Source: an uncultured Blastocatellia bacterium
GTDB taxonomy: Bacteria; Acidobacteriota; Blastocatellia; Chloracidobacteriales; Chloracidobacteriaceae
Direction: 5' to 3'
Assembly (NCBI GenBank): GCA_937934745.1
Contig: CALGZC010000005.1
Location: forward strand, 1 to 64,000
Length of the DNA: 64,000 nt
Of the stretch, positions 17,619 through 29,129 are shown piece after piece (position 1 is the stretch's first letter; each line of letters opens with the position of its first letter). A program made the translations under genes and the position numbers. A model generated the notes under the pieces. The model saw only the letters and a program-made list of their open reading frames with translations, ran no database searches and had not been told where the DNA came from.

Positions 17619-20600
17619 TTAAAGCAAGCCGTCCCAGTTGCCGACCAGTGGCAGATCGCCGTCTGAGCCGTACACGAGCAGAAAATCGGCCGTCCCGGGC
17701 AAGTTCGTGTTCCGCAAGAAGAACGTTTGCACGCGATAGACGCCGACCGTGTCCGCGCCGTCGCCGTCGAAGTCGCCGACCACCACCTTGTCGTCAGGAT
17801 TGCCGAAATCAAACGCCAGATCAGCGTCCCCGCCGCTGTTGGCGTTGCGCAGCAGGAACGTATTGCCGCGAACGACGCCGATGGTCGTGATCCCGTCGCC
17901 GTCCCAGTCGCCGGCCAGCGGCCGGTCGCCCTCATCGCCGTAGGGAACAACAATATCCGGGTTGCCGGGCGCATTGCTGTTGCGGAGGAAGAACCTCCGT
18001 TCGGAGGGGCGGTAGACGCCGATGGTGGTCGTCCCATTGCCATCCCAGTCGCCGACCAGGGGAATATCATCAACCGCGCCGTAGGCTACGGCGACATCGG
18101 CCACCCCGCTGCTGTTGCTGTTGCGGAGAAAGAAGACCCCCTGACGAAACACGCCGACGGTCGTCACGCCGTCCCCGTCCCAGTCGCCGGCAAGTGGAAG
18201 GTCGTCCGCGTCGCCAAATGCAAAGGCCAAGTCGGCATCCCCGGACGTATTTGAGTTGCGCAGAAAGAATTCCCCCCGGCGAAAGATGCCTACCGTATCA
18301 CCTTGTTCGCCGCGTGCGCCGTATGCACCGAGCACTTTGGACAGACCGCCGCCGCCGCGTCCGCCCCAGACGATCATTTGGCGCCGCGGCGCATCCCAAA
18401 TGGCTGTGTGCCCGGCCGTCAAGTCCGGCGCGCCCTCGGTTTCCACCGGACGCCAGAAGTTGAACGTTGGATTATAGCGCCCACCAGTTGCTCCGGCGTC
18501 ACCCCAGACGATCATCTCGCGGCCTGTCCAAACGGCCGTGTGCCCGGAGCGCGCCGCCGGCGCGCCGTTGGCTGCTGTTGCGGCCCAGGTGTCGGTCGTC
18601 GGGTTGTAGAGCGCACCGGAGTTGAAGGCGCGGGCAGCAGTCGTTGCGCCGCCCCAGACAATCATCCGGTCGCCGGTCCACACGGCCGTGTGGTCAAAGC
18701 GGGCGTCTGGCGCGCCGTCCGTCCCGCCGGAGGTCGTCGGGTCAACGCGTGTCGCCGTCCAGCGATTGGTTGCCGGGTTATAACGGCCGCCCGAGCGCAG
18801 TTCGGAAAAGCGGTTGTCCGCAAACGTGACCCCGCCCCAGATAATCATCTCCGTCCCTGTCCACACGGCCGTGTGGCGCGCACGCGGCCCGGGACGCCCG
18901 TCGGCTGCCGTGGTCGTCCAGGCGTCCGCCACCGGATTGTAACGGCCGCCGTTGTCAAAGTAGGTGGTGGTGTTGTCCACCGGATTGGTGAAGCGCCCAC
19001 CCCAGACGATCATCTCGCTACCGGTCCAGACGGCCGTGTGTTCTTCGCGGGCGGCGGGCGCATTGGTCAGCGTGGTTGGCGTCCACGTGTTGGTGACCGG
19101 GTCGTAGCGGCCGCCGGCGTTTGTTTGTCCGCCCCAGACGATCATTTCACTGCCCGTCCACAGGGCCGTATGCCCGACCGGAGGAAGGTTGTTCGCCGCG
19201 CCGGGCGCATTCTGGGTCGCGGTCGGCGTCCACTGCGCCGTCGCCAAGTTGTACCGCCCGCCGGTCAGCGTCCGCAATCCGGCCGACACGCCGCCCCAGA
19301 TGATCATTTCCGCGCCGGTATTGATCGCCGTGTGCGACTCGCGGCCAATTGGAACCGGCGTGGTCGCCGTTGGGAGCCAGGCATCGGCAAGCGGATCGTA
19401 GCGCCCGCCGGTCGCGTCGCCCCCCTGGCCGCCCCAGACGATCATGTATTTTGTCGCGTTTTGGTTGGGTTCGGCATAGGCGTCGGTCCACACCGCCGTA
19501 TGGTTGTCGCGTCCGCTCGGCGCGCCGACGGTCGTGACCGGCGTCCAGGCGTTTGTCGCGGGGTTGTAGCGTCCGCCGTCGTTGAAGCGCGTGCCCAGCG
19601 CCGAGCCGCCCCAGATGATCATTTCCGCGCCGGTCCAGACCGCCGTCTGGTCAACGCGCGGGGACGGCGCGCCGGCCGTTGCAATCGCCGTCCAGTTGTT
19701 GGCGCTGGGGTTGTACCGGGCGCCCGCCGCGGTCGGCGCCGACGCGCCCGCCACGCTTCCCCAGACGATGAGTTCCGCGCCGGTCCATACGGCGCTGGGG
19801 GTGAATAAACCCGGCGCATTGGTTGTACTGGTTGCCGTCCAGGTATTGTTGCCGGGCGTATAAATCCCGCCGCTGTTGAGCCGGCCGCCATCGGCGTTGA
19901 CGCCGCCGAAAACGATCATGGCGCTGCCGGTTGAGACGGCGACATGATCGGTCCGGGCAAGCGGGGCGCCGGTTGTCGCCGTCGCGCTCCAGGTGTTCGT
20001 TTCCGGGTTATAAACACCACCGGTGTTAGTCGGAAGCGGAATGTTGCCCCCGGCGAAATTAAGGTTGCCGCCCCAGATGACCATGCGCCCGGCCTGCGCC
20101 AGCCAGACGGCGACATGGCTGAAGCGGGCTGCCGGGGCGCCGTCGTTGGCGGTTGCAGAGCTTGGGTCGGTCCGCGTTGCGGCCCATTTGTCCTCAACCG
20201 GGTCGTAGAGCGCGCCGGAGTTGACCGGCGCGCCGCTCACCCCGCCCCAAATGATCATGCGCGTTCCGGTCCAGACGGCCGTGTGGTTGACGCGCGGGGC
20301 CGGCGCGCCATCTGTCGCTCCGGCCGCGCTCGGCGCCACGCGCGTCGGCGTCCAGGTGTCGGTGATCGGGTTGTACCGCCCACCGGTATTGAGCGGGCTG
20401 CCGCCGCTGAAGGTGCCGCGAAAGCCGCCCCAAATGATCATTTCGACGCCTGTCCAGACGGCCGTATGGCGAAAGCGCGGCGCGGGGACCGCGTCCGCCG
20501 GGTCCTGCGCCCAGCGGTTGTCGTTCCCGGCAACAGCCTTGGGGACCGCCTGCTCAGCCGTGATGGCCGGAAACGTTCCGGAAACCGAGCGAATGACCGG

Positions 20601-21533
20601 GCTGTAACCGGCTCTAGCACGCGCCCACCACGTGTCGAAGTCCATCTTGCGCCATTCGGCTGTGCCGATGCGCAGGTACCCGTCTTCAACCGCCTGGAGC
20701 TGTTGGATGAAAAACCGCTCGTCATCCTCACACAGCGGTGTTGTTGCGCCGGGCGTGAGCTTGCCGCCAAAGCGTGCCGCCAAGTGGGTCAGCTCGTTCT
20801 GCCAATCGGCTCCGCCAACCGGCAGGCAGTTCAAACACGGTACTTGGGGACGTGCCTGGCCGGTGTCCCGAACGACCTCAAAGGTGCTGTAGGTCGCGCC
20901 GAAGCTCGGCATGTGCTCCAGTGCCGCGCCGGCTGCGAGTGCGCGCCGCGCCTGAGCTTCGGTGGCGGCATGAAACCGCCGGTCACGGGCGTAATCGGCA
21001 TAGAGGCGCTGCTTGACCAGCGCCGGGCGGGCGAGACACTCGGCAATGGCAATGGGATCATTGTCGAGCACGGCAAAGAGTTCCTGCAAAACTTCCGGCT
21101 GTTTGGATTGGCGCGCCATGCGGGCCACTTCGGCGTGCAGTTCGGCCGCGGTCGGGGCATGCCGCCACAGCAGGTCAAGCGCATGTTGCTGGCGCAACTC
21201 GTCCTCGACGAGGGCGCGCGCGCGGGCGAGCGGGAAGATGCTCTCGAAGCTTGGCTTGGGCGTTGCCGCTTCCCAGCGCCGCCGCTTCCAGTAAACCTTC
21301 TCAATCGCATGCCGATAGCGCGCGCGCTCGTCCAGCGCGAGCGTCCGCCACCGCGTCGCGCCGCAGACGGAAACACCCGGCATCCCCCTCAGCTTCGGCC
21401 TCGGGTTGCCCGGCGCAGGCGGTGACGCTGACAAGCCGCTGGCCTTGACCGTGGCCGCAGTTGGGATCGACCAGGGTGACACAGGGCACACCCCCGCAAC
21501 CAAGCAAAGACAAACAAGCAGACGAAACAACAT
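17619..21533 (-). CDS. Secreted kelch-repeat and FG-GAP-like repeat protein
   Basis: A large exported protein of about 1,304 residues. It starts with a hydrophobic signal (MLFRLLVCLCLVAGVCPVSP) and a roughly 330-residue helical N-terminal region that I do not recognise. About 14 kelch-like repeats follow, each centred on HTAVWTGxEMIIWGG with a GGRYNP element, enough for two beta-propellers. The C-terminal 250 residues hold five repeats of about 48 residues (TVGVFRQGVFFLRNSNSSG ... DIPLVGDWDGNG), whose DxDGDG loops resemble the Ca-binding FG-GAP/VCBS type. The ATG at 21533 begins the signal; upstream TTG codons are possible. It is divergent from the radical SAM peptide operon, with 311 bases between them. 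A shared function is possible but unproven. Confidence 0.82.
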   Translation of the reverse strand: MLFRLLVCLCLVAGVCPVSPWSIPTAATVKASGLSASPPAPGNPRPKLRGMPGVSVCGATRWRTLALDERARYRHAIEKVYWKRRRWEAATPKPSFESIFPLARARALVEDELRQQHALDLLWRHAPTAAELHAEVARMARQSKQPEVLQELFAVLDNDPIAIAECLARPALVKQRLYADYARDRRFHAATEAQARRALAAGAALEHMPSFGATYSTFEVVRDTGQARPQVPCLNCLPVGGADWQNELTHLAARFGGKLTPGATTPLCEDDERFFIQQLQAVEDGYLRIGTAEWRKMDFDTWWARARAGYSPVIRSVSGTFPAITAEQAVPKAVAGNDNRWAQDPADAVPAPRFRHTAVWTGVEMIIWGGFRGTFSGGSPLNTGGRYNPITDTWTPTRVAPSAAGATDGAPAPRVNHTAVWTGTRMIIWGGVSGAPVNSGALYDPVEDKWAATRTDPSSATANDGAPAARFSHVAVWLAQAGRMVIWGGNLNFAGGNIPLPTNTGGVYNPETNTWSATATTGAPLARTDHVAVSTGSAMIVFGGVNADGGRLNSGGIYTPGNNTWTATSTTNAPGLFTPSAVWTGAELIVWGSVAGASAPTAAGARYNPSANNWTAIATAGAPSPRVDQTAVWTGAEMIIWGGSALGTRFNDGGRYNPATNAWTPVTTVGAPSGRDNHTAVWTDAYAEPNQNATKYMIVWGGQGGDATGGRYDPLADAWLPTATTPVPIGRESHTAINTGAEMIIWGGVSAGLRTLTGGRYNLATAQWTPTATQNAPGAANNLPPVGHTALWTGSEMIVWGGQTNAGGRYDPVTNTWTPTTLTNAPAAREEHTAVWTGSEMIVWGGRFTNPVDNTTTYFDNGGRYNPVADAWTTTAADGRPGPRARHTAVWTGTEMIIWGGVTFADNRFSELRSGGRYNPATNRWTATRVDPTTSGGTDGAPDARFDHTAVWTGDRMIVWGGATTAARAFNSGALYNPTTDTWAATAANGAPAARSGHTAVWTGREMIVWGDAGATGGRYNPTFNFWRPVETEGAPDLTAGHTAIWDAPRRQMIVWGGRGGGGLSKVLGAYGARGEQGDTVGIFRRGEFFLRNSNTSGDADLAFAFGDADDLPLAGDWDGDGVTTVGVFRQGVFFLRNSNSSGVADVAVAYGAVDDIPLVGDWDGNGTTTIGVYRPSERRFFLRNSNAPGNPDIVVPYGDEGDRPLAGDWDGDGITTIGVVRGNTFLLRNANSGGDADLAFDFGNPDDKVVVGDFDGDGADTVGVYRVQTFFLRNTNLPGTADFLLVYGSDGDLPLVGNWDGLL

Positions 21534-21844
21534 CAGTGCGCAATCACAGGTCCTAAGATGGGCACGCTCCCCTCCCGCAGGATTTTGGAGTTCAGCGTGC
21601 AAAACAAGGGCTCATTCTTACCAAGCGCTGGCGGAAAGCCAAGCAGAAAGCTACTGCTTCGGCATCGGCTACTGCGAAAGCCAAAAAGTGGTAGTATCAG
21701 GCGCAAGGCTGTGTTGTTGGCTATCAATTATCGCGTATCGCGCTGAAAAACGCATAAATTTGCAATACCTTTACTATACTGAACCCCATCATTCGTGACA
21801 CTCCCACTACCTCACATCAAGCTTTGACAGGATTCCATCACGCT

Positions 21845-22159
21845 ATGAGCAACCGGATTGAAAAACAACCTTGCGTTCTCCGCTGCATTGCCGGCGAAAC
21901 TCTCCTCATCCCCCTCCGTGGAAAAGCGGCCGACCTTGACGCAATCTATGTCCTCAATGAGACGGCCGCCCGCCTTTGGGAGGGACTTGACCGGTACAGC
22001 GATCTGTCCTCCCTGACCGCTTACTTGGCAGAGACCTTTGACGGCGTCACGGCGGCGGCAGCCGTTCAAGATGTTGCCGATTTTCTCGATGCGTTGGCCG
22101 AAGCCGGTTTGATCCGCGCGACCTGTGCCGCAAGTCAGCCCGTCTGTCAGTTGACCTGA
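21845..22159 (+). CDS. PqqD-family peptide recognition protein (RRE)
   Basis: A 104-residue winged-helix protein of the PqqD type, which binds the leader of a precursor peptide and presents it to a radical SAM enzyme. Family features are GETLLIPLRGKAADLDAIYV, then LNETAARLWEGLDRYSDLS, then LAETFDGVTAAAAVQDVADF and LDALAEAGLIR. The ATG at 21845 is preferred, with AGGA about 9 bases upstream; a TTG at 21824 is in frame. It is the first gene of a six-gene unit and ends 11 bases before the radical SAM gene. No pqqA, B, C or E is present, so a role in PQQ synthesis is unlikely. Confidence 0.88.
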   Translation: MSNRIEKQPCVLRCIAGETLLIPLRGKAADLDAIYVLNETAARLWEGLDRYSDLSSLTAYLAETFDGVTAAAAVQDVADFLDALAEAGLIRATCAASQPVCQLT

Positions 22160-22170
22160 GGGCTGCCGGT

Positions 22171-23442
22171 ATGAGGGCAAGCGTCTCGTATGCGCATTTC
22201 AGCCGGCAGTTGCACCGCCGACTGCTGGAAGATCGGATTCCACTCGAAGCCACCTTCGAGGTCAGTCGGCGCTGCCCACTCGCGTGTCGGCACTGCTACA
22301 ACAACCTGCCAGTGGGCGACCGAGCGGCGCGGCAGCGGGAGCTGACGCTCGATGAGTACCGGCGGATTTTCGACGAAATTGCCGAGGCCGGCACGCTCTG
22401 GCTCCTCTTGACCGGGGGCGAAGTCCTAGCGCGACCTGACTTCCTGGAGATTTACACGGAAGCCAAGACGCGCGGCTTTCTCATCACGATCTTTACCAAC
22501 GGCACGCTCCTGACGCCGCGCATTGCGGACTACCTGGCGGAGTGGCGTCCGTTTGCTGTTGAAATCACGCTCTACGGTCATACCCGCGAGACCTACGAGC
22601 GTCTCACGCGCGCGCCCGGCTCGTATGACCGCTGTCATCGCGGCATCGCGTTGCTTCTGGAACGCAGCCTGCCGCTCAAGCTTAAGACGGTGGGCACGAC
22701 TATCACCAAGGATGAAATCTTCGCCATGCGCGACTGGGCCGAGGCTCTGGGCGTGCCGTTCAAGTTCGACAGCATGCTCAATCCGCGCATTGATTGTTCT
22801 CAATCGCCGCTGGAGGTGCGCTTGACGCCGGAGGAAGTCGTTGAGCTGGACCTCCGCGATCCGCGCCGCTTGCCGGCCTGGCGCGACCTGAGCCAGCGCT
22901 ATCAAACCGCCGCGATGGCGCCCTATGTGACGAACACGGTCTATGACTGCGGCGGCGGCATTGGATCGTTTGCCGTCAACCCCTACGGCGAGATGTCGAT
23001 CTGCGTCCTGTCACAGACGGAGACCTATGACCTGCGGCAGGGAAGCTTCCGCGAGGGCTGGGAGCATTTCCTGCGCCAAGCGCGCCTGCAACTGCGAACG
23101 CGCCCGGTCAAGTGCCAAACGTGTGAGATTCGGCCGATGTGCGGCAGTTGCGCCGCCGTCAACGAGCTGGAAACGGGCGACAAGGAGACGCCGATTGACT
23201 TTGCTTGTCGCGTCAATCACCTGCGCGCCTATCTGCTCGAGATTCCGCTTACGCCCAACCCCCTGTGCGAGTACCGCCCAGGCAGCGAGCGGTATGCGGA
23301 ACTACAGGCGTCGGTCGCGGCTCTGCGGCAGCGCGCCGCCGAGCTTGGCGTCGCCTTGCCCGTGCCGTCGCGCCGCAGCTTGCCGGTCATCCCTTTCCAG
23401 CACGACGGAAATTCTGTCAAGGAGGGCCATTCAAATGAGTGA
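22171..23442 (+). CDS. Radical SAM/SPASM peptide-modifying enzyme
   Basis: A 423-residue enzyme likely to modify the peptide encoded immediately downstream. The radical SAM cluster motif is CPLACRHC (Cys35, 39, 42). The SAM-binding segment LLLTGGEVLARPDF and IFTNGTLLTPRIAD follow. The C-terminal SPASM domain supplies seven Cys (about 260, 278, 315, 318, 324, 327, 346), including CQTCEIRPMCGSC, enough for auxiliary iron-sulfur clusters. Relatives form thioether, C-C or other crosslinks in ribosomal peptides; the chemistry here cannot be read from sequence. GAGGG lies about 8 bases before the ATG. The 3' end overlaps the precursor gene by 8 bases. Confidence 0.93.
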   Translation: MRASVSYAHFSRQLHRRLLEDRIPLEATFEVSRRCPLACRHCYNNLPVGDRAARQRELTLDEYRRIFDEIAEAGTLWLLLTGGEVLARPDFLEIYTEAKTRGFLITIFTNGTLLTPRIADYLAEWRPFAVEITLYGHTRETYERLTRAPGSYDRCHRGIALLLERSLPLKLKTVGTTITKDEIFAMRDWAEALGVPFKFDSMLNPRIDCSQSPLEVRLTPEEVVELDLRDPRRLPAWRDLSQRYQTAAMAPYVTNTVYDCGGGIGSFAVNPYGEMSICVLSQTETYDLRQGSFREGWEHFLRQARLQLRTRPVKCQTCEIRPMCGSCAAVNELETGDKETPIDFACRVNHLRAYLLEIPLTPNPLCEYRPGSERYAELQASVAALRQRAAELGVALPVPSRRSLPVIPFQHDGNSVKEGHSNE

Positions 23443-23629
23443 CCAGCGCGAACAACCTCAATCCCAGAGGGCGGAACAGAACGCGCGCCGCCCTTACGTC
23501 AAGCCTTCGATCACGCGCGTCGAGCTGCGGGCGGAAGAGGCCGTCCTCGGCGCTTGCAAGACGGCGTCAACCGCCGGACCGGCGGCGCCGCAGTGCGCAT
23601 CGCTCGGCTGTAGCTCGATTGCTTCCTAA
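23435..23629 (+). CDS. Candidate RiPP precursor peptide (64 residues, three Cys)
   Basis: A short gene with a strong ribosome-binding site (AAGGAGGG, 6-7 bases before the ATG), starting inside the last codons of the radical SAM gene. The N-terminal half is hydrophilic and leader-like. It is followed by RRPYVKPSITRVELRAEEAV, which has the look of a conserved recognition segment, and LGACKTASTAGPAAPQ. The Cys residues are at 41, 54 and 59, in a C-terminal core of Ala, Ser, Gly and Thr ending CSSIAS. The position between PqqD/rSAM and kinase/protease genes, the size and the Cys placement support a modified-peptide substrate. Which residues are modified and where the leader is cut are not known. 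Confidence 0.82.
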   Translation: MSDQREQPQSQRAEQNARRPYVKPSITRVELRAEEAVLGACKTASTAGPAAPQCASLGCSSIAS

Positions 23630-23641
23630 GGCGAGCCTGCT

Positions 23642-24529
23642 ATGACAGAAGAAGCCTTTTCCATCGGCGGGCTTGTCCTGGTCGCCCGGCGGGAGGCTGA
23701 AGATAGCCCGCCGGCCATGGCCGACTCGCTGGCGGCGTTTGCCGTGCCGGCCGGGCGCGCCGCTCCGACCGCGACGGTGAGCGTGACCTGGCAGGACGAC
23801 CGCCAATCGCCGGCGGACCGCGCCGAGCCTGTCTTTGCCTCGGGCGGCATGTGGACGCTCTACCGCGCGGCCGACGGGGGCTATCTCTATGACGTTGTCT
23901 CGCCGGTTTTTGGGGAGCGTCCATACCGTACAGCGTGGTTTGACGCCGAGTACCAGACCGGCTGGATCGCGTGCCGGTCAGACGCAACCACGCGCCGCGC
24001 GCTGCGCGCTGCGCTGGAATACCCGTTGGACGAATTGTGGGTAACCAATCTCCTGGCGCGCGGACGCGGCGTTGAGCTGCACGCCTGCGCCGTCGTGGAT
24101 GTGGACGGGCGCGGCTTTCTGTTTGTCGGCCAGTCGGGCGACGGCAAGACGACCACTGCGCGGTTGTGGTCGGCGGCCGGCGCAACGGCGCTCAGCGATG
24201 ACCGCGTGATCGTCCGCAAGCTGGACGGTCGCTGGATGATGTTTGGGACGCCCTGGCATGGCGAAGCCGAATTCGCCCGTCCTGATGCGGCACCGATAAC
24301 GCGCGCGTTCATTTTGCGGCATGGGGACGGCGAGCGCGTTGCCGCGCTCAAGCCGGCCCAGGCCGCAGCGTTGTTGCTCGCCCGCGCGTTTCCGCCATTT
24401 TACGACGCCGCGGCGCTCGGCTTTACGGCCGATTGCCTGGGGCGCCTGGTCGGCGAGCTGCCGTGTGAAACGCTGACATTCACGCCCACGCCGGCTGCGG
24501 TGGCGTATGTGCGGGAGCTGTCGTTATGA
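23642..24529 (+). CDS. HPr-kinase-like P-loop protein
   Basis: A 295-residue protein related to the C-terminal domain of HPr kinase/phosphorylase. The Walker A motif is FVGQSGDGKTTTA (about residues 161-173), followed by ALSDDRVIVRKLDG and the family-typical FGTPWHGEAEFA. The N-terminal half (1-140) is not recognised and lacks the canonical HPr-binding arrangement. HPr-kinase-like proteins occur in peptide natural-product clusters, and some lasso-peptide loci use one to phosphorylate the peptide. Phosphorylation of a Ser or Thr in the adjacent precursor is therefore plausible but inferred. It starts 12 bases after the precursor stop, with AAGG upstream, and overlaps the next gene by 4 bases. 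Confidence 0.85.
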   Translation: MTEEAFSIGGLVLVARREAEDSPPAMADSLAAFAVPAGRAAPTATVSVTWQDDRQSPADRAEPVFASGGMWTLYRAADGGYLYDVVSPVFGERPYRTAWFDAEYQTGWIACRSDATTRRALRAALEYPLDELWVTNLLARGRGVELHACAVVDVDGRGFLFVGQSGDGKTTTARLWSAAGATALSDDRVIVRKLDGRWMMFGTPWHGEAEFARPDAAPITRAFILRHGDGERVAALKPAQAAALLLARAFPPFYDAAALGFTADCLGRLVGELPCETLTFTPTPAAVAYVRELSL

Positions 24530-24954
24530 CCGCGCTGAGTCTCACAAGGCTTGCGGCCGACCTGCTTCGCCAGGGCTATGCGGTGCAGTTTCGAGCGCCA
24601 GGGCGCAGTATGGCGCCGACCCTTGCGGACGGCGTGCGGTTGCTGGTCGAGCCGCTGGCGGCCGACGCGCCGGTTCAGGTCGGCGACATTGTGCTGGCAC
24701 GCCTCGGCGACCGCCTGCTCGCCCACCGCGTGGTTGCTATCGAAGGCAGCGGCGCGACGGCGCGGCTCGTCCTGCGCGGGGATGCCCAGCGGGATGTCAC
24801 GGATGTCGTCCGGCGCACAGCCATCCTAGGAAAAGCGCGCCTGCCCGATGCGCCGACGCGCAGCGCTCCCTTGTTACGGATTAGGTATCGAGCTGCTCAG
24901 AGAACGCCTCTCTATCTGAAAACAATACACAAGCTTATTGCGAGGCTAGTATGA
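24526..24954 (+). CDS. S24/S26-type peptidase, Ser/His dyad
   Basis: A 142-residue protein with the signal-peptidase-like elements FRAPGRSMAPTLADG (Ser28 of the SM motif) and QVGDIVLARLGDRLLAHRVV. The usual bacterial catalytic Lys is replaced by His67, as in SEC11/SipW-type enzymes. No clear transmembrane helix is visible at either end, unlike most signal peptidases, so it may act in the cytoplasm or bind a membrane partner. Within this operon it is a candidate leader protease for the modified peptide. Its start overlaps the kinase stop (ATGA) and its stop overlaps the next start (ATGA), indicating tight coupling. Confidence 0.8.
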   Translation: MTALSLTRLAADLLRQGYAVQFRAPGRSMAPTLADGVRLLVEPLAADAPVQVGDIVLARLGDRLLAHRVVAIEGSGATARLVLRGDAQRDVTDVVRRTAILGKARLPDAPTRSAPLLRIRYRAAQRTPLYLKTIHKLIARLV

Positions 24955-27900
24955 AACTCCAAAAAAAACAGCGCTTTTCACGATCATTGACGCCTGCGGT
25001 CGCGCGCTGGTGCCTGACGGCGTGCGCGGTTGGCATCCTGTTAGTCGTTGGACGCTTTCCATCCGGGCGATTCGAAGCGCGCGCGGCCCGCACGCCAATG
25101 CCGGCGCAGACCATCACTGTGCGAGACAGCAACGCTCTGCTAGGCAACGGCGATTTTGTCGGTTGTTCCACCTCGCCGGGACTGAACACATACTACGCCA
25201 TCTTCATTGAGGTGCCGTCTGGAACCGCGCGTCTCACCATTGACCTGTTTGACGCCGACTATGGCTCGACAACCGGTTCCAGCGGCAATCTCTACGACAA
25301 TCCTGTCACTCCCGCCACCAGCACCCAATTCTCGCTCTTTGATCCGGCCGGGAGCTCGATTCCTCTCAATACGTTGCTGACGGGCACGGGTCTCAACTTC
25401 AACCAGGGGAATCAATCCGCCGTCGGCACGAACGGTCCTGACACGCGGGCAGCCAATGGTGACTGGAAAAATTTCTTCACCCGCGCAGACCCTGACGCCG
25501 GCCACTGGGAACTGCGCATTGTGCAACCTGGCGGCGGCTCTTCCGGCGTCAATCACTTCGGCATCGCGGCGCACACCCTCGATCCGGGGTCAAACCGGGA
25601 TCAGAACTTGGGCGGGCCGACCTCCGGGCGCGGGCTGAATATGTACTTTGACCCCGGTATCCACATCGGCCCGCAGACGCCGGGACGCACCCCGCCGATT
25701 ACCTGGAATTACTACCCATACATCACCAGCGGCTGCAATTGCCGGGCGAACGAGTTTGATTGGGATGCGCCAAGCGGAACCGGCTCGATCAACTTCACAA
25801 GCCGCACGGGCAGCTACACCTTCAGCACGACAACCGTTTCGGGAAACGCGAGCTGGGTGAGCAACAACGTCAACAACTGGACGACTAACGTCAGCGCCGT
25901 TGACTACGGCATTTGGCAGAACACGCTGACGATTAGCGCCGCTGGGAATAATCACATCACCTATTACATCGGCAGTTACGCCGCGGTTGTTCCAAACTCA
26001 AACGGCACGAACATTCTTGCCTCCGAATGGCGGCAGGGGGACAAGTTTCGCGTGTATTTCCCCGGCGATGCCGGCGCCTCCACGGCGCCGCTCAAGCCGT
26101 ACATGACGCAGCGCCTGTTTCATATTAACGGCCCGAATCCGCCTTGCGTCGACGATACGACGTTTTATCGCGTGCGGGTGGATATCGTGAACCCGACCGA
26201 TGAGCCGATTGTGCTTGACGGAACGACGATTGGCTCGCGGACGCGGCGCGTGCAGGCCAATATCCCCAACGTGCCCGGCGTTTCTTACGCGAATGAGTCA
26301 ATTTACGGGGGCGCGCAGGTCACGCAGGGCACCTTTACGCAGCCGGCCGACGGGGCGACATCCGGCAGCATTTTCTGGACGCCGGGAACGATTAGCGCCA
26401 ACAGCGGGGCGTCGCTGTTCTATGTAATCCGCGTGGCGCCGACGCTTTCCTCGCCCTGCGTCATGGATGTGACCGGCGCGCCGGGCGGCGCGGTGGAAGG
26501 CACAACCGCGGTGTGGCTTGACGAAACCGGGAACACGACGCAGGAGCGCGCAACCTACACGTTTGGACCGCTCTGCGCGCTGCGCGTGGATCGCTCCGGG
26601 GCTTGCACGGGTTGTTTAGGGAGCGCGCCGCCGACGCCGACGAAAGTGGATGTGACCGACTTGACAGCCCTGCGTTACGCGACGGGCGTGACGCTGGTGC
26701 AGTGGGCGACCGGCTACGAAGCCGATCACCTTGGCTTCCATGTGTGGCGCGAGACAGGCGGCAAGCGGGAACGGATTACGCCGGAGCTGATTGCCGGAAG
26801 CGCGTTGTTGACGCGCGACGCCCTCACGGCCGGGCAGCATTACGTCTGGCGCGACGATACGTTGCGGCTGACGCGCGCGCCGGTCAACTACTGGCTGGAA
26901 GCCTACGATGTGAACGGTGCGCGGGAGTGGTACGGGCCGGTTACGCTCCGTGAAACGCGGACCCCGTTTCCGCTGCACCTGCGGACCTCGCCGCTTCTGG
27001 GACAGGGCGCGCCGGCCGCGCCCGGACGCCAGATGGACGTTGCGCCGGACGCGCTCGAGGCGAGGGCAAGGGGCGTTGAGCGCGCCAAGGTCGAGCCAAA
27101 GCGCGCGCCGAGCGGCGATATGGCGACCCAGCAGTGGTTAGCCGCCCGCCCGGCGGTCAAGCTCTTCGTCGGGCAAACCGGATGGCAGCGCATCGCCTGG
27201 GCCGCCCTCTGGGCAGCGGGGCTGTCGCGAATGGCCGATCCGGCAAACTTGCAGCTTTATCTCGAAGGCCGTGAGATGCCGCTGCGCGTCACGGCGGAAG
27301 GCCTCGAATTCTATGGCGTTGCGGCAGACACGCTGGACAGCGGGGAAGCCGTATATTGGCTCATCGAAGGCGACCGTCCCGGACGCCGCGTCGGCTTGGG
27401 GGCGTCCTTCCCGCTGCTGCGTCCCACGGCGCAGAGTTTCCCGGCAGTGACAACGCGCGCTGATAAGAGCGTTTATTTCGCGGCGCTTCTCAACGGCGAC
27501 GAAGATAACTTCTTCGGCAGCGTCGTGGCGACGACGCCTGTGGCGCAAAGCCTCGCCATTCCTGATCCTGACCCGACAAGCTGGCACCCGGCCGAAGTGA
27601 TGGTGGAGCTTCAGGGCGTGTCGCCGGGCGAGCATGCCGTTTCGGTGCAGTGGAATGGTCAGCCGCTTGGGGTGATCGCCTATACCGGACGGACGGTCGG
27701 GCGCGGCGTCTGGAACGTACCGGCCGACCAGGTGCTGGACGGGACGAATACGGTCACGCTTCACGCGCCGACGGCCGGGGATGTCAGCCTGGTCAAGGCG
27801 GTGACGGTGGCTTACACGCGGCGCTTGCGGGCGGTTGCCAACCGGTTGACGGTCAACGTGCCCCGCGACGGCGCGGGGCTTGGGCGACATGTGCTCGCAA

Positions 27901-29129
27901 TTGAAGGGTTTACGGCCCCGGCGCGCGCTTTTGATGTCACCGACGCCGCCGCCCCGGTGGAGCTACCCGTGCGGATGACGGGCGATGTCGCCACGATTGC
28001 CGCCGCGCCGGGGCGCCGGGTCATCGTCACGGCTCCGGCGGCGATGCTGACGCCGCGCGCGGAAGCCAACCGGCCATCACACTGGTATCGGGCCGACAAT
28101 GCGGCAGACGTTGTGATCGTCACGCACGAAGCCTTTCTTCCGGCGGCGGAGCGGCTGGCGCAGGCGCGGCGCGCCGAAGGCCTGGCCGTGGCCATCGTGG
28201 ACATTGCCGACGTGTATGACGAATGGAGCTACGGGGTGAAATCGGCGGCGGCGCTGCGCGACTTCCTGCGTCACGCCGGAACGGCGTGGGCGCGGCCGGC
28301 GCGGTATGCCCTGCTCGTCGGCAACGCGACCTTCGATCCGCGCGACTACCTGGGCTTTGGCGGCAACTTCATCCCGACGAAGCTCATCGGCGTCGGCGCG
28401 CTGGAAACGGCGGTGGACGACTGGCTGGGCGATATGGACGCCACGGGCCTGGCGCGGTTGATGGTCGGGCGCTTGCCGGTCAAGACGCCGGCCGAAGCCG
28501 AAATCGTCGTGTCGAAGATTCTGGCGTATGAGCAGGCCGGCGACGCCGACTGGAAGCGGCGGGCCTTGGTCGTCGCCGACAACCCGGATGAAGGCGGCGA
28601 TTTTGACGCCGCGGCAAGTGACGTGCTGGCGCGCTTGCCACACCCGGAGCGCGCAACGCCGATTCGGCTCAGCGCCTTAGGTCCCGGCGGGGCGCGGGCC
28701 GCGCTGCTTGCCGGCATGAACGCCGGCGCGGGACTGGTCAACTACATCGGCCACGGCTCGGTGCAGAACTGGGCGGCGGAGAATATCCTGACGAGCGGCG
28801 ATGCTGCTCTGCTGACCAATCACGGGCAGGCCGGGCTGGTGGCGAGCATGACCTGCCTGACGGGTTTCCACCATGACCTGTACGCGACGGCGCTGGGCAA
28901 GGCATTGGTCTTGGCGCCGGGCGGGGCCGTCGCCGTGTGGTCATCCTCGGCGCTCACGCCGAGCGATGGTCAGCGGTGGTCGAACCTGGCGCTGCTGGAA
29001 GCTATGTCTGGCCCAAACCGGGCTTCGCGGCTGGGCGACGCGATTCGGCGGGCGAAAGTCGCGACCGGCGACTTGGGCATACGGCAGTCGTGGACGTTGC
29101 TGGGCGACCCAACAATGCGCCTGCCGTAG
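24951..29129 (+). CDS. Secreted peptidase family C25 (gingipain-like) protein
   Basis: A 1,392-residue exported protein. The N-terminus is basic then hydrophobic (signal, about residues 1-45). The first 600 residues are a beta-rich exported region, and a fibronectin-like part follows near residues 565-670. The C-terminal third is a caspase-like C25 domain. The substrate-recognition segment VVIVTHEAFLPAAERLAQAR starts the fold; the catalytic His is in NYIGHGSVQNW (His1268) and the Cys in ASMTCLTGF (Cys1302). C25 includes gingipains and the type IX sorting protease PorU. It is translationally coupled to the S26 peptidase, so it probably matures or exports the operon product, or is itself a delivered effector. 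No type IX secretion gene is visible nearby. Confidence 0.85.
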   Translation: MKLQKKQRFSRSLTPAVARWCLTACAVGILLVVGRFPSGRFEARAARTPMPAQTITVRDSNALLGNGDFVGCSTSPGLNTYYAIFIEVPSGTARLTIDLFDADYGSTTGSSGNLYDNPVTPATSTQFSLFDPAGSSIPLNTLLTGTGLNFNQGNQSAVGTNGPDTRAANGDWKNFFTRADPDAGHWELRIVQPGGGSSGVNHFGIAAHTLDPGSNRDQNLGGPTSGRGLNMYFDPGIHIGPQTPGRTPPITWNYYPYITSGCNCRANEFDWDAPSGTGSINFTSRTGSYTFSTTTVSGNASWVSNNVNNWTTNVSAVDYGIWQNTLTISAAGNNHITYYIGSYAAVVPNSNGTNILASEWRQGDKFRVYFPGDAGASTAPLKPYMTQRLFHINGPNPPCVDDTTFYRVRVDIVNPTDEPIVLDGTTIGSRTRRVQANIPNVPGVSYANESIYGGAQVTQGTFTQPADGATSGSIFWTPGTISANSGASLFYVIRVAPTLSSPCVMDVTGAPGGAVEGTTAVWLDETGNTTQERATYTFGPLCALRVDRSGACTGCLGSAPPTPTKVDVTDLTALRYATGVTLVQWATGYEADHLGFHVWRETGGKRERITPELIAGSALLTRDALTAGQHYVWRDDTLRLTRAPVNYWLEAYDVNGAREWYGPVTLRETRTPFPLHLRTSPLLGQGAPAAPGRQMDVAPDALEARARGVERAKVEPKRAPSGDMATQQWLAARPAVKLFVGQTGWQRIAWAALWAAGLSRMADPANLQLYLEGREMPLRVTAEGLEFYGVAADTLDSGEAVYWLIEGDRPGRRVGLGASFPLLRPTAQSFPAVTTRADKSVYFAALLNGDEDNFFGSVVATTPVAQSLAIPDPDPTSWHPAEVMVELQGVSPGEHAVSVQWNGQPLGVIAYTGRTVGRGVWNVPADQVLDGTNTVTLHAPTAGDVSLVKAVTVAYTRRLRAVANRLTVNVPRDGAGLGRHVLAIEGFTAPARAFDVTDAAAPVELPVRMTGDVATIAAAPGRRVIVTAPAAMLTPRAEANRPSHWYRADNAADVVIVTHEAFLPAAERLAQARRAEGLAVAIVDIADVYDEWSYGVKSAAALRDFLRHAGTAWARPARYALLVGNATFDPRDYLGFGGNFIPTKLIGVGALETAVDDWLGDMDATGLARLMVGRLPVKTPAEAEIVVSKILAYEQAGDADWKRRALVVADNPDEGGDFDAAASDVLARLPHPERATPIRLSALGPGGARAALLAGMNAGAGLVNYIGHGSVQNWAAENILTSGDAALLTNHGQAGLVASMTCLTGFHHDLYATALGKALVLAPGGAVAVWSSSALTPSDGQRWSNLALLEAMSGPNRASRLGDAIRRAKVATGDLGIRQSWTLLGDPTMRLP

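Follow-up and report, generated by a model that had tools for sequence, protein, structure and literature searches.

A putative RiPP precursor in a conserved cassette of RRE, radical SAM, HprK-like kinase and S26-type peptidase genes

Described systems and the present locus

The closest described systems to the cassette reported here are the linear polyphosphorylated peptides (LPP) known from Bacillota (Popov et al. 2026, PMC13381572) and the paeninodin lasso peptides. The leader motif bound by discrete RREs can be written YxxPx[IVL], and the LPP leader peptidase LppS is an SpI-like enzyme with catalytic residues S29, H68 and D93 that needs its RRE (PMC13381572). PadeK phosphorylates a C-terminal Ser, which is the conserved site of lasso precursors accompanied by such a kinase (PMC9266682), and the lasso precursor kinase motif reads H148-G163-G166-G168-K169-S170-D186-D187 in BsfK (PMC10368454).

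We analyzed a 64,000-nt stretch of an uncultured Blastocatellia bacterium (the window; contig CALGZC010000005.1, positions 1 to 64,000). Its cassette combines, as LPP loci do, a discrete RRE, an HprK-like kinase and an SpI-like leader peptidase, the latter two recognized by fold. Also common to both are the YxxPx[V] leader motif, the lack of a recognized lasso cyclase, a leader protease of archaeal signal-peptidase-like type with Ser, His and Asp in corresponding places, and linkage to surface polysaccharide genes, at Bacillota loci and in one clade here. Unlike LPP, the cassette has a constant radical SAM (rSAM)/SPASM enzyme, a three-Cys core and an added C25 protease, and occurs in other phyla. 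Its conserved acceptor is proposed to be the C-terminal Ser, where LPP have Ser3. The LPP leader, YxxPxVLxHQxIxFETxxS, is replaced by YxxPx[IVL] and then LRPEEAVLGxCK, with the FETxxS end missing, and of the LPP core set the genes for an NTP transferase and an MsbA-like transporter are both absent from the PqqD-to-C25 interval of the window. With the paeninodin type (PadeK, ThcoK; also Bsf) the cassette shares a discrete RRE, a [YW]xxP leader, a conserved C-terminal Ser and an HprK-like kinase with an identical active-site motif; it differs in having S26 in place of B2, an added rSAM enzyme, a three-Cys core with no Asp/Glu acceptor and, among the recurrent gene families, no recognized B2 protease or macrolactam cyclase.

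Three further systems share parts. SynChlorMet (TIGR04248-TIGR04251), for which no paper was found in the open-access literature searched, also brings PqqD-like, rSAM/SPASM and HprK-like genes together, but membership was rejected on the NCBIfam cut-offs of ScmC, ScmD, ScmE and ScmF (rSAM 65-78 bits vs 400, HprK 26 vs 125, PqqD 15 vs 100). One locus, L127:4285-7845 in genome G405, does have a SynChlorMet-like arrangement (HprK, rSAM, PqqD, second rSAM, precursor), its two rSAM genes recalling ScmE/ScmF; its precursor is related and ends RTISSS. Ranthipeptides and sactipeptides (PapB, SkfB, AlbA, StsB) likewise use a SPASM rSAM enzyme on a Cys-containing RiPP core, but they differ from the present cassette with its kinase and, in the window, a core with no Asp/Glu partner for PapB-type links; the PapB, StsB and AlbA models scored far below cut-off (57.7 of 340, 72.6 of 625 and 51.6 of 850 bits). 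The protease has the catalytic C25 domain of PorU and gingipains, with its His and Cys, yet its 221.5 bits fall short of the PorU cut-off (420), and it is linked to a RiPP cassette.

We file the cassette as a variant of the phosphorylated RRE-dependent RiPPs and place it outside the LPP, lasso peptide, SynChlorMet, ranthipeptide and sactipeptide families. The string EEAVLGACK had no mention in the open-access literature searched. That literature, seen mostly as titles and abstracts, held no description of the combination (C25, PqqD, HprK, rSAM, Acidobacteria); as far as such records go, the separate parts are described and the combination is not.

The precursor gene and its family

The precursor gene (23435..23629, + strand; ATG start, TAA stop) encodes 64 aa. 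An earlier note had singled it out as a precursor candidate with a strong ribosome site, embedded among modification enzymes, overlapping the rSAM stop and carrying Cys41, Cys54 and Cys59, and each of these points was borne out: the ribosome-binding site AAGGAGGG (23419..23426, +) lies 8 nt ahead of the ATG, the 5' end overlaps the rSAM gene (22171-23442) by 8 nt, the three Cys are at those residues, and the flanks match PqqD, radical SAM, HprK-C-like, S26/S24 and C25 by Pfam. A longer, 228-aa reading of the same frame (22943-23629) was rejected as the gene start; for the greater part it runs across the conserved rSAM gene, which is read in a different frame, and homology sets in near 23435.

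The ORF is not a chance one, since homologues occur in relatives (E 1e-10 to 5e-25) and at 79 named loci in other species, and it evolves as a protein does. Across 29 codons in six congeners, variable sites fall 7/5/27 on codon positions 1/2/3, so that third positions hold 27 of the 39; dN is 0.05-0.15 vs dS of 1.3-2.1 for congener pairs with computable dS. Such a pattern points to a translated gene under purifying selection. No Pfam or NCBIfam model covers the precursor, and a search of viral contigs with it gave no match.

The precursor is present in 11 of 58 relatives, a count that includes a probable chance match in G039 (L011, weak and with the motif absent), and, at the level of the phylum, in 39 of 396 genomes. 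Most of the 79 loci come from Acidobacteriota, and some carry the labels Myxococcales, Armatimonadetes, Sumerlaeia or Proteobacteria; homologues span Acidobacteriota, Myxococcota, Armatimonadota and Sumerlaeota. The scan that yielded these loci required the pattern LR[AP]EEAVLG, so the set is not random and the search itself partly dictated how conserved this stretch looks, whereas it had no such effect on the Cys and the C-terminal Ser.

Conserved features of the family are YxxPx[IVL], L-R-P-E-E-A-V-L-G-x-C-K, three Cys, and Ser or Thr at the C-terminus. The layout of leader plus core that had been suggested gains support from the first of these, as the motif that discrete RREs bind. In the window it reads YVKPSI (residues 21-26; 23495..23512, +) and is the predicted RRE-binding site; YxxP is found in 102 of 103 distinct precursors. 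The conserved leader end, ELRAEEAVLG (residues 30-39; 23522..23551, +), is followed by the putative core ACKTASTAGPAAPQCASLGCSSIAS (23552..23626, +), with the three Cys and the C-terminal Ser64 (codon 23624-23626). Exactly three Cys are present in 95 of the 102 CK-bearing cores, most commonly spaced C-x12-C-x5-C, and the third is sixth from the C-terminal end in 92%; conservation of motif and Cys spacing, proposed beforehand as a check, is thus found. Lys42 is invariant in the alignments and would be core residue 3 if the cut follows G39. The last residue is Ser (98) or Thr (4) in all 102 complete precursors, and in all 54 representatives at <60% identity, vs a Ser plus Thr content of only 23.5% in the remaining core; a single precursor with a terminal Lys (L036) is truncated by the end of its contig and hence not counted as complete.

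The enzymes and their neighborhood

The same check had asked for homologues near other rSAM genes, and these are the rule. Among the 79 loci, rSAM is found in 76, HprK in 74, PqqD in 72, S26 in 67 and C25 in 32, as counted with profiles derived from the proteins of the window, the C25 count being limited by the 8-kb flank. The order on one strand is nearly constant: PqqD-rSAM-precursor-HprK-S26. LPP and lasso clusters include an exporter gene, whereas this cassette has none. Upstream of it in the window, on the opposite strand (17619-21602, -), is a gene for a 1327-aa protein with many W-T-G-x-E-M-I-x-W-G-G repeats.

The discrete RRE (21824..22159, +; PqqD family PF05402, E 2.5e-13) starts at TTG 21824 or ATG 21845. 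The rSAM/SPASM enzyme (22171..23442, +; PF04055, E 2e-20) has its cluster site at CPLACRHC (C35, C39, C42) and eight auxiliary-cluster Cys of SPASM type (C260, C278, C315, C318, C324, C327, C346, C366); all eleven are at least 95% conserved over 76 loci. Its nearest solved relatives are PqqE and SkfB. Three conserved Cys in the core and a SPASM enzyme would fit the thioether sites that the note had raised as potential features of the core.

The HprK-like peptide kinase (23642..24529, +; H147, GQSGDGKTT, SDD 185-187, GTPWHG) scores 19.4 bits against PF07475 (HprK-C-like), under the cut-off of 33.3; its assignment comes from fold and a PDB profile match to HprK (E 1.1e-4). Its AlphaFold model (pLDDT 93.7) matches the PEPCK/HprK fold in Foldseek at E about 1e-5, although the TM-scores, normalized by query length, are low (0.24-0.46). 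The conserved residues H147, G163, G166, G168, K169, D186 and D187 match the lasso precursor kinase motif. The note had spoken of a phospho site, and our analysis sharpens this to the C-terminal Ser64 as the best candidate acceptor; another Ser or Thr of the Ser/Thr-rich core could serve, because BsfK and LppK also hit Ser3.

Neither of the two peptidases had figured in the note, the S26-type as leader protease or C25 as part of the cassette. The S26B-like protein (24526..24954, +) barely exceeds the Pfam S26/S24 cut-off (24-26 bits) and has no obvious transmembrane helix. Its model matches the SpsB signal peptidase and LexA-type proteases in Foldseek, and S28, H67 and D86, invariant in the alignment, have the order and roughly the spacing of S29, H68 and D93 in LppS. 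With Ser/His and not Ser/Lys, it presumably belongs with the archaeal-type enzymes. We propose it as the leader peptidase and expect a cut between A36 and A40; the exact bond would be at A36 by the LPP spacing from Tyr, or at G39 by the small-residue rule of signal peptidases.

The S26 gene overlaps by ATGA the gene of a secreted multidomain C25 cysteine protease of 1392 aa (24951..29129, +; PF01364, E 2.1e-72; His in YIGHG, Cys in SMTCLTG), the only C25 gene of its genome, and in relatives C25 is fused to or adjoins S26. The two share one open frame in 19 loci, and the frame extends >500 codons beyond the S26 domain in 37 of 67. These extended frames usually cross a hydrophobic stretch that resembles a signal peptide and often ends near AxAQ, and they may make either one polypeptide or a separate product from an internal start. 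In all six cassette-bearing Chloracidobacterium genomes the sole C25 gene adjoins the precursor (in G005 across both ends of contig 2, assuming a circular contig). C25 is also adjacent in G032, G040, G072, G129, G216 (twice), G287, G305, G316, G323, G361 and G374. At the Armatimonadota locus L054, C25 comes directly after the precursor, with the orthologous rSAM gene on another contig, and Sumerlaeota G420 carries two precursors with a C25 close to each. C25 genes also occur outside the cassette, with up to 17 matches in the Blastocatellia genome G014, where neither the precursor nor the cassette kinase was found.

Clade f25 keeps the five-gene core, with C25 not adjacent. Around its cassette (L123:5590-15910, L122) are NTP_transf_5, a T2SSE/HD protein, an S26-Wza fusion and a Wzc-like protein. 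Pfam was run on the flanks of L123, where the fusion partner of S26 is a Wza-like export protein (SLBB/Poly_export) adjoining the Wzc-like protein, and where alone the NTP_transf_5 gene was seen, upstream of the cassette. Such Wza/Wzc and C25 neighborhoods, taken as gene content, link the cassette to the cell envelope. A Myxococcales genome (G421) has a second precursor (L068:7709-11196), and after it come two ORFs (486 and 460 aa); neither matched Pfam, and there is no C25 at that locus.

A proposed pathway and its alternatives

The gene at 23435-23629 is a short one with a conserved leader and RRE motif, lying beside an RRE and a modifying enzyme, as RiPP precursors do. We think it probable that it is a RiPP precursor on which RRE, rSAM enzyme, kinase and S26 peptidase act in turn, giving a peptide that may work with C25. 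The observed basis for this is the coding status, the conservation, the fixed cassette, the conserved catalytic residues, and the kinase and peptidase folds. Motif and family suggest that the PqqD-type RRE would bind the YxxPx[IVL] leader. The rSAM/SPASM enzyme would then modify the Cys core; our default guess for its product, and the most plausible one, is a cross-link that involves at least one of the three Cys. The HprK-like kinase is predicted to phosphorylate the C-terminal Ser/Thr, a step that PadeK and ThcoK carry out on lasso precursors; this prediction draws on its fold, on the conservation of its active site and on the invariance of the acceptor. Once modified, the peptide would be cut near AVLG by the S26B-like peptidase, helped by the RRE, in the manner of LppS. 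In the weakest step, suggested by genetic linkage, the mature phosphopeptide may act outside the cytoplasm or at the envelope with the secreted C25. Against the pathway as a whole speak the missing exporter gene, the kinase score under its Pfam cut-off, the marginal Pfam score of the S26 protein, the Ser3 preference known for BsfK and LppK, and the clade in which C25 is not next to the cassette.

In one alternative the peptide is no secreted natural product but a dedicated cofactor, inhibitor or propeptide of C25 whose interaction the rSAM and kinase steps tune. The precursor stands beside C25 even without the enzymes next to it, at the Armatimonadota locus and for both Sumerlaeota precursors, and the six Chloracidobacterium genomes point the same way; we nevertheless hold this unlikely, as clade f25 retains the five-gene core with no adjacent C25 and with S26 fused to the Wza-like protein, and the second G421 precursor has no C25 neighbor. 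The peptide might instead be the source of a redox cofactor, modified by rSAM and RRE and degraded by peptidases to a small molecule, as PqqA is to PQQ and MftA to mycofactocin. PqqE and the mycofactocin maturase are among the relatives of the rSAM enzyme, and several peptidases lie within the cassette, but the enzyme reaches 66 and 88 bits where the cut-offs are 381 and 265, no dehydrogenase accompanies it, and the core lacks the Glu/Tyr of PQQ or the Val-Tyr of mycofactocin; the whole core moreover keeps its Cys spacing and C-terminal Ser, needless for a small cofactor, which makes this origin quite improbable.

We give hardly any credence to a lasso peptide with a YxxP leader and C-terminal phosphorylation. 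The YxxPx[IVL] leader, discrete RRE, HprK-like kinase and C-terminal Ser are indeed those of paeninodin-type clusters (PMC9266682, PMC10368454), yet the window core has no Asp/Glu acceptor (core position 7-9), 86 of 102 cores are entirely free of D and E, and no B2 protease or lasso cyclase was recognized among gene families present in at least 4 of the 79 loci, so far as these families were classified.

Within the pathway of successive rSAM, kinase and S26 action, a bolder version can be entertained tentatively, though we rate it as rather doubtful: that these peptides form a RiPP class defined by radical-SAM modification together with C-terminal phosphorylation, whose partner is either the secreted C25 or the Wza/Wzc export system to which S26 is fused. 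The peptide would then be no free antibiotic; its role with C25 might be that of an anchor, a transpeptidation substrate or a regulator. In the other clade the partner would be Wza/Wzc polysaccharide export, with the S26 leader peptidase physically fused to an envelope protein.

If the proposed pathway is true, it would join rSAM modification and HprK-type phosphorylation, which were not found together in the literature searched (mostly titles and abstracts), in little-studied phyla. Precursor, enzymes and predicted sites are all defined, making the chemistry testable. The role of phosphorylated RiPPs was called unknown in the LPP paper (PMC13381572), and a leader peptidase joined to a secreted C25 or to a capsule-export protein would offer a handle on it.
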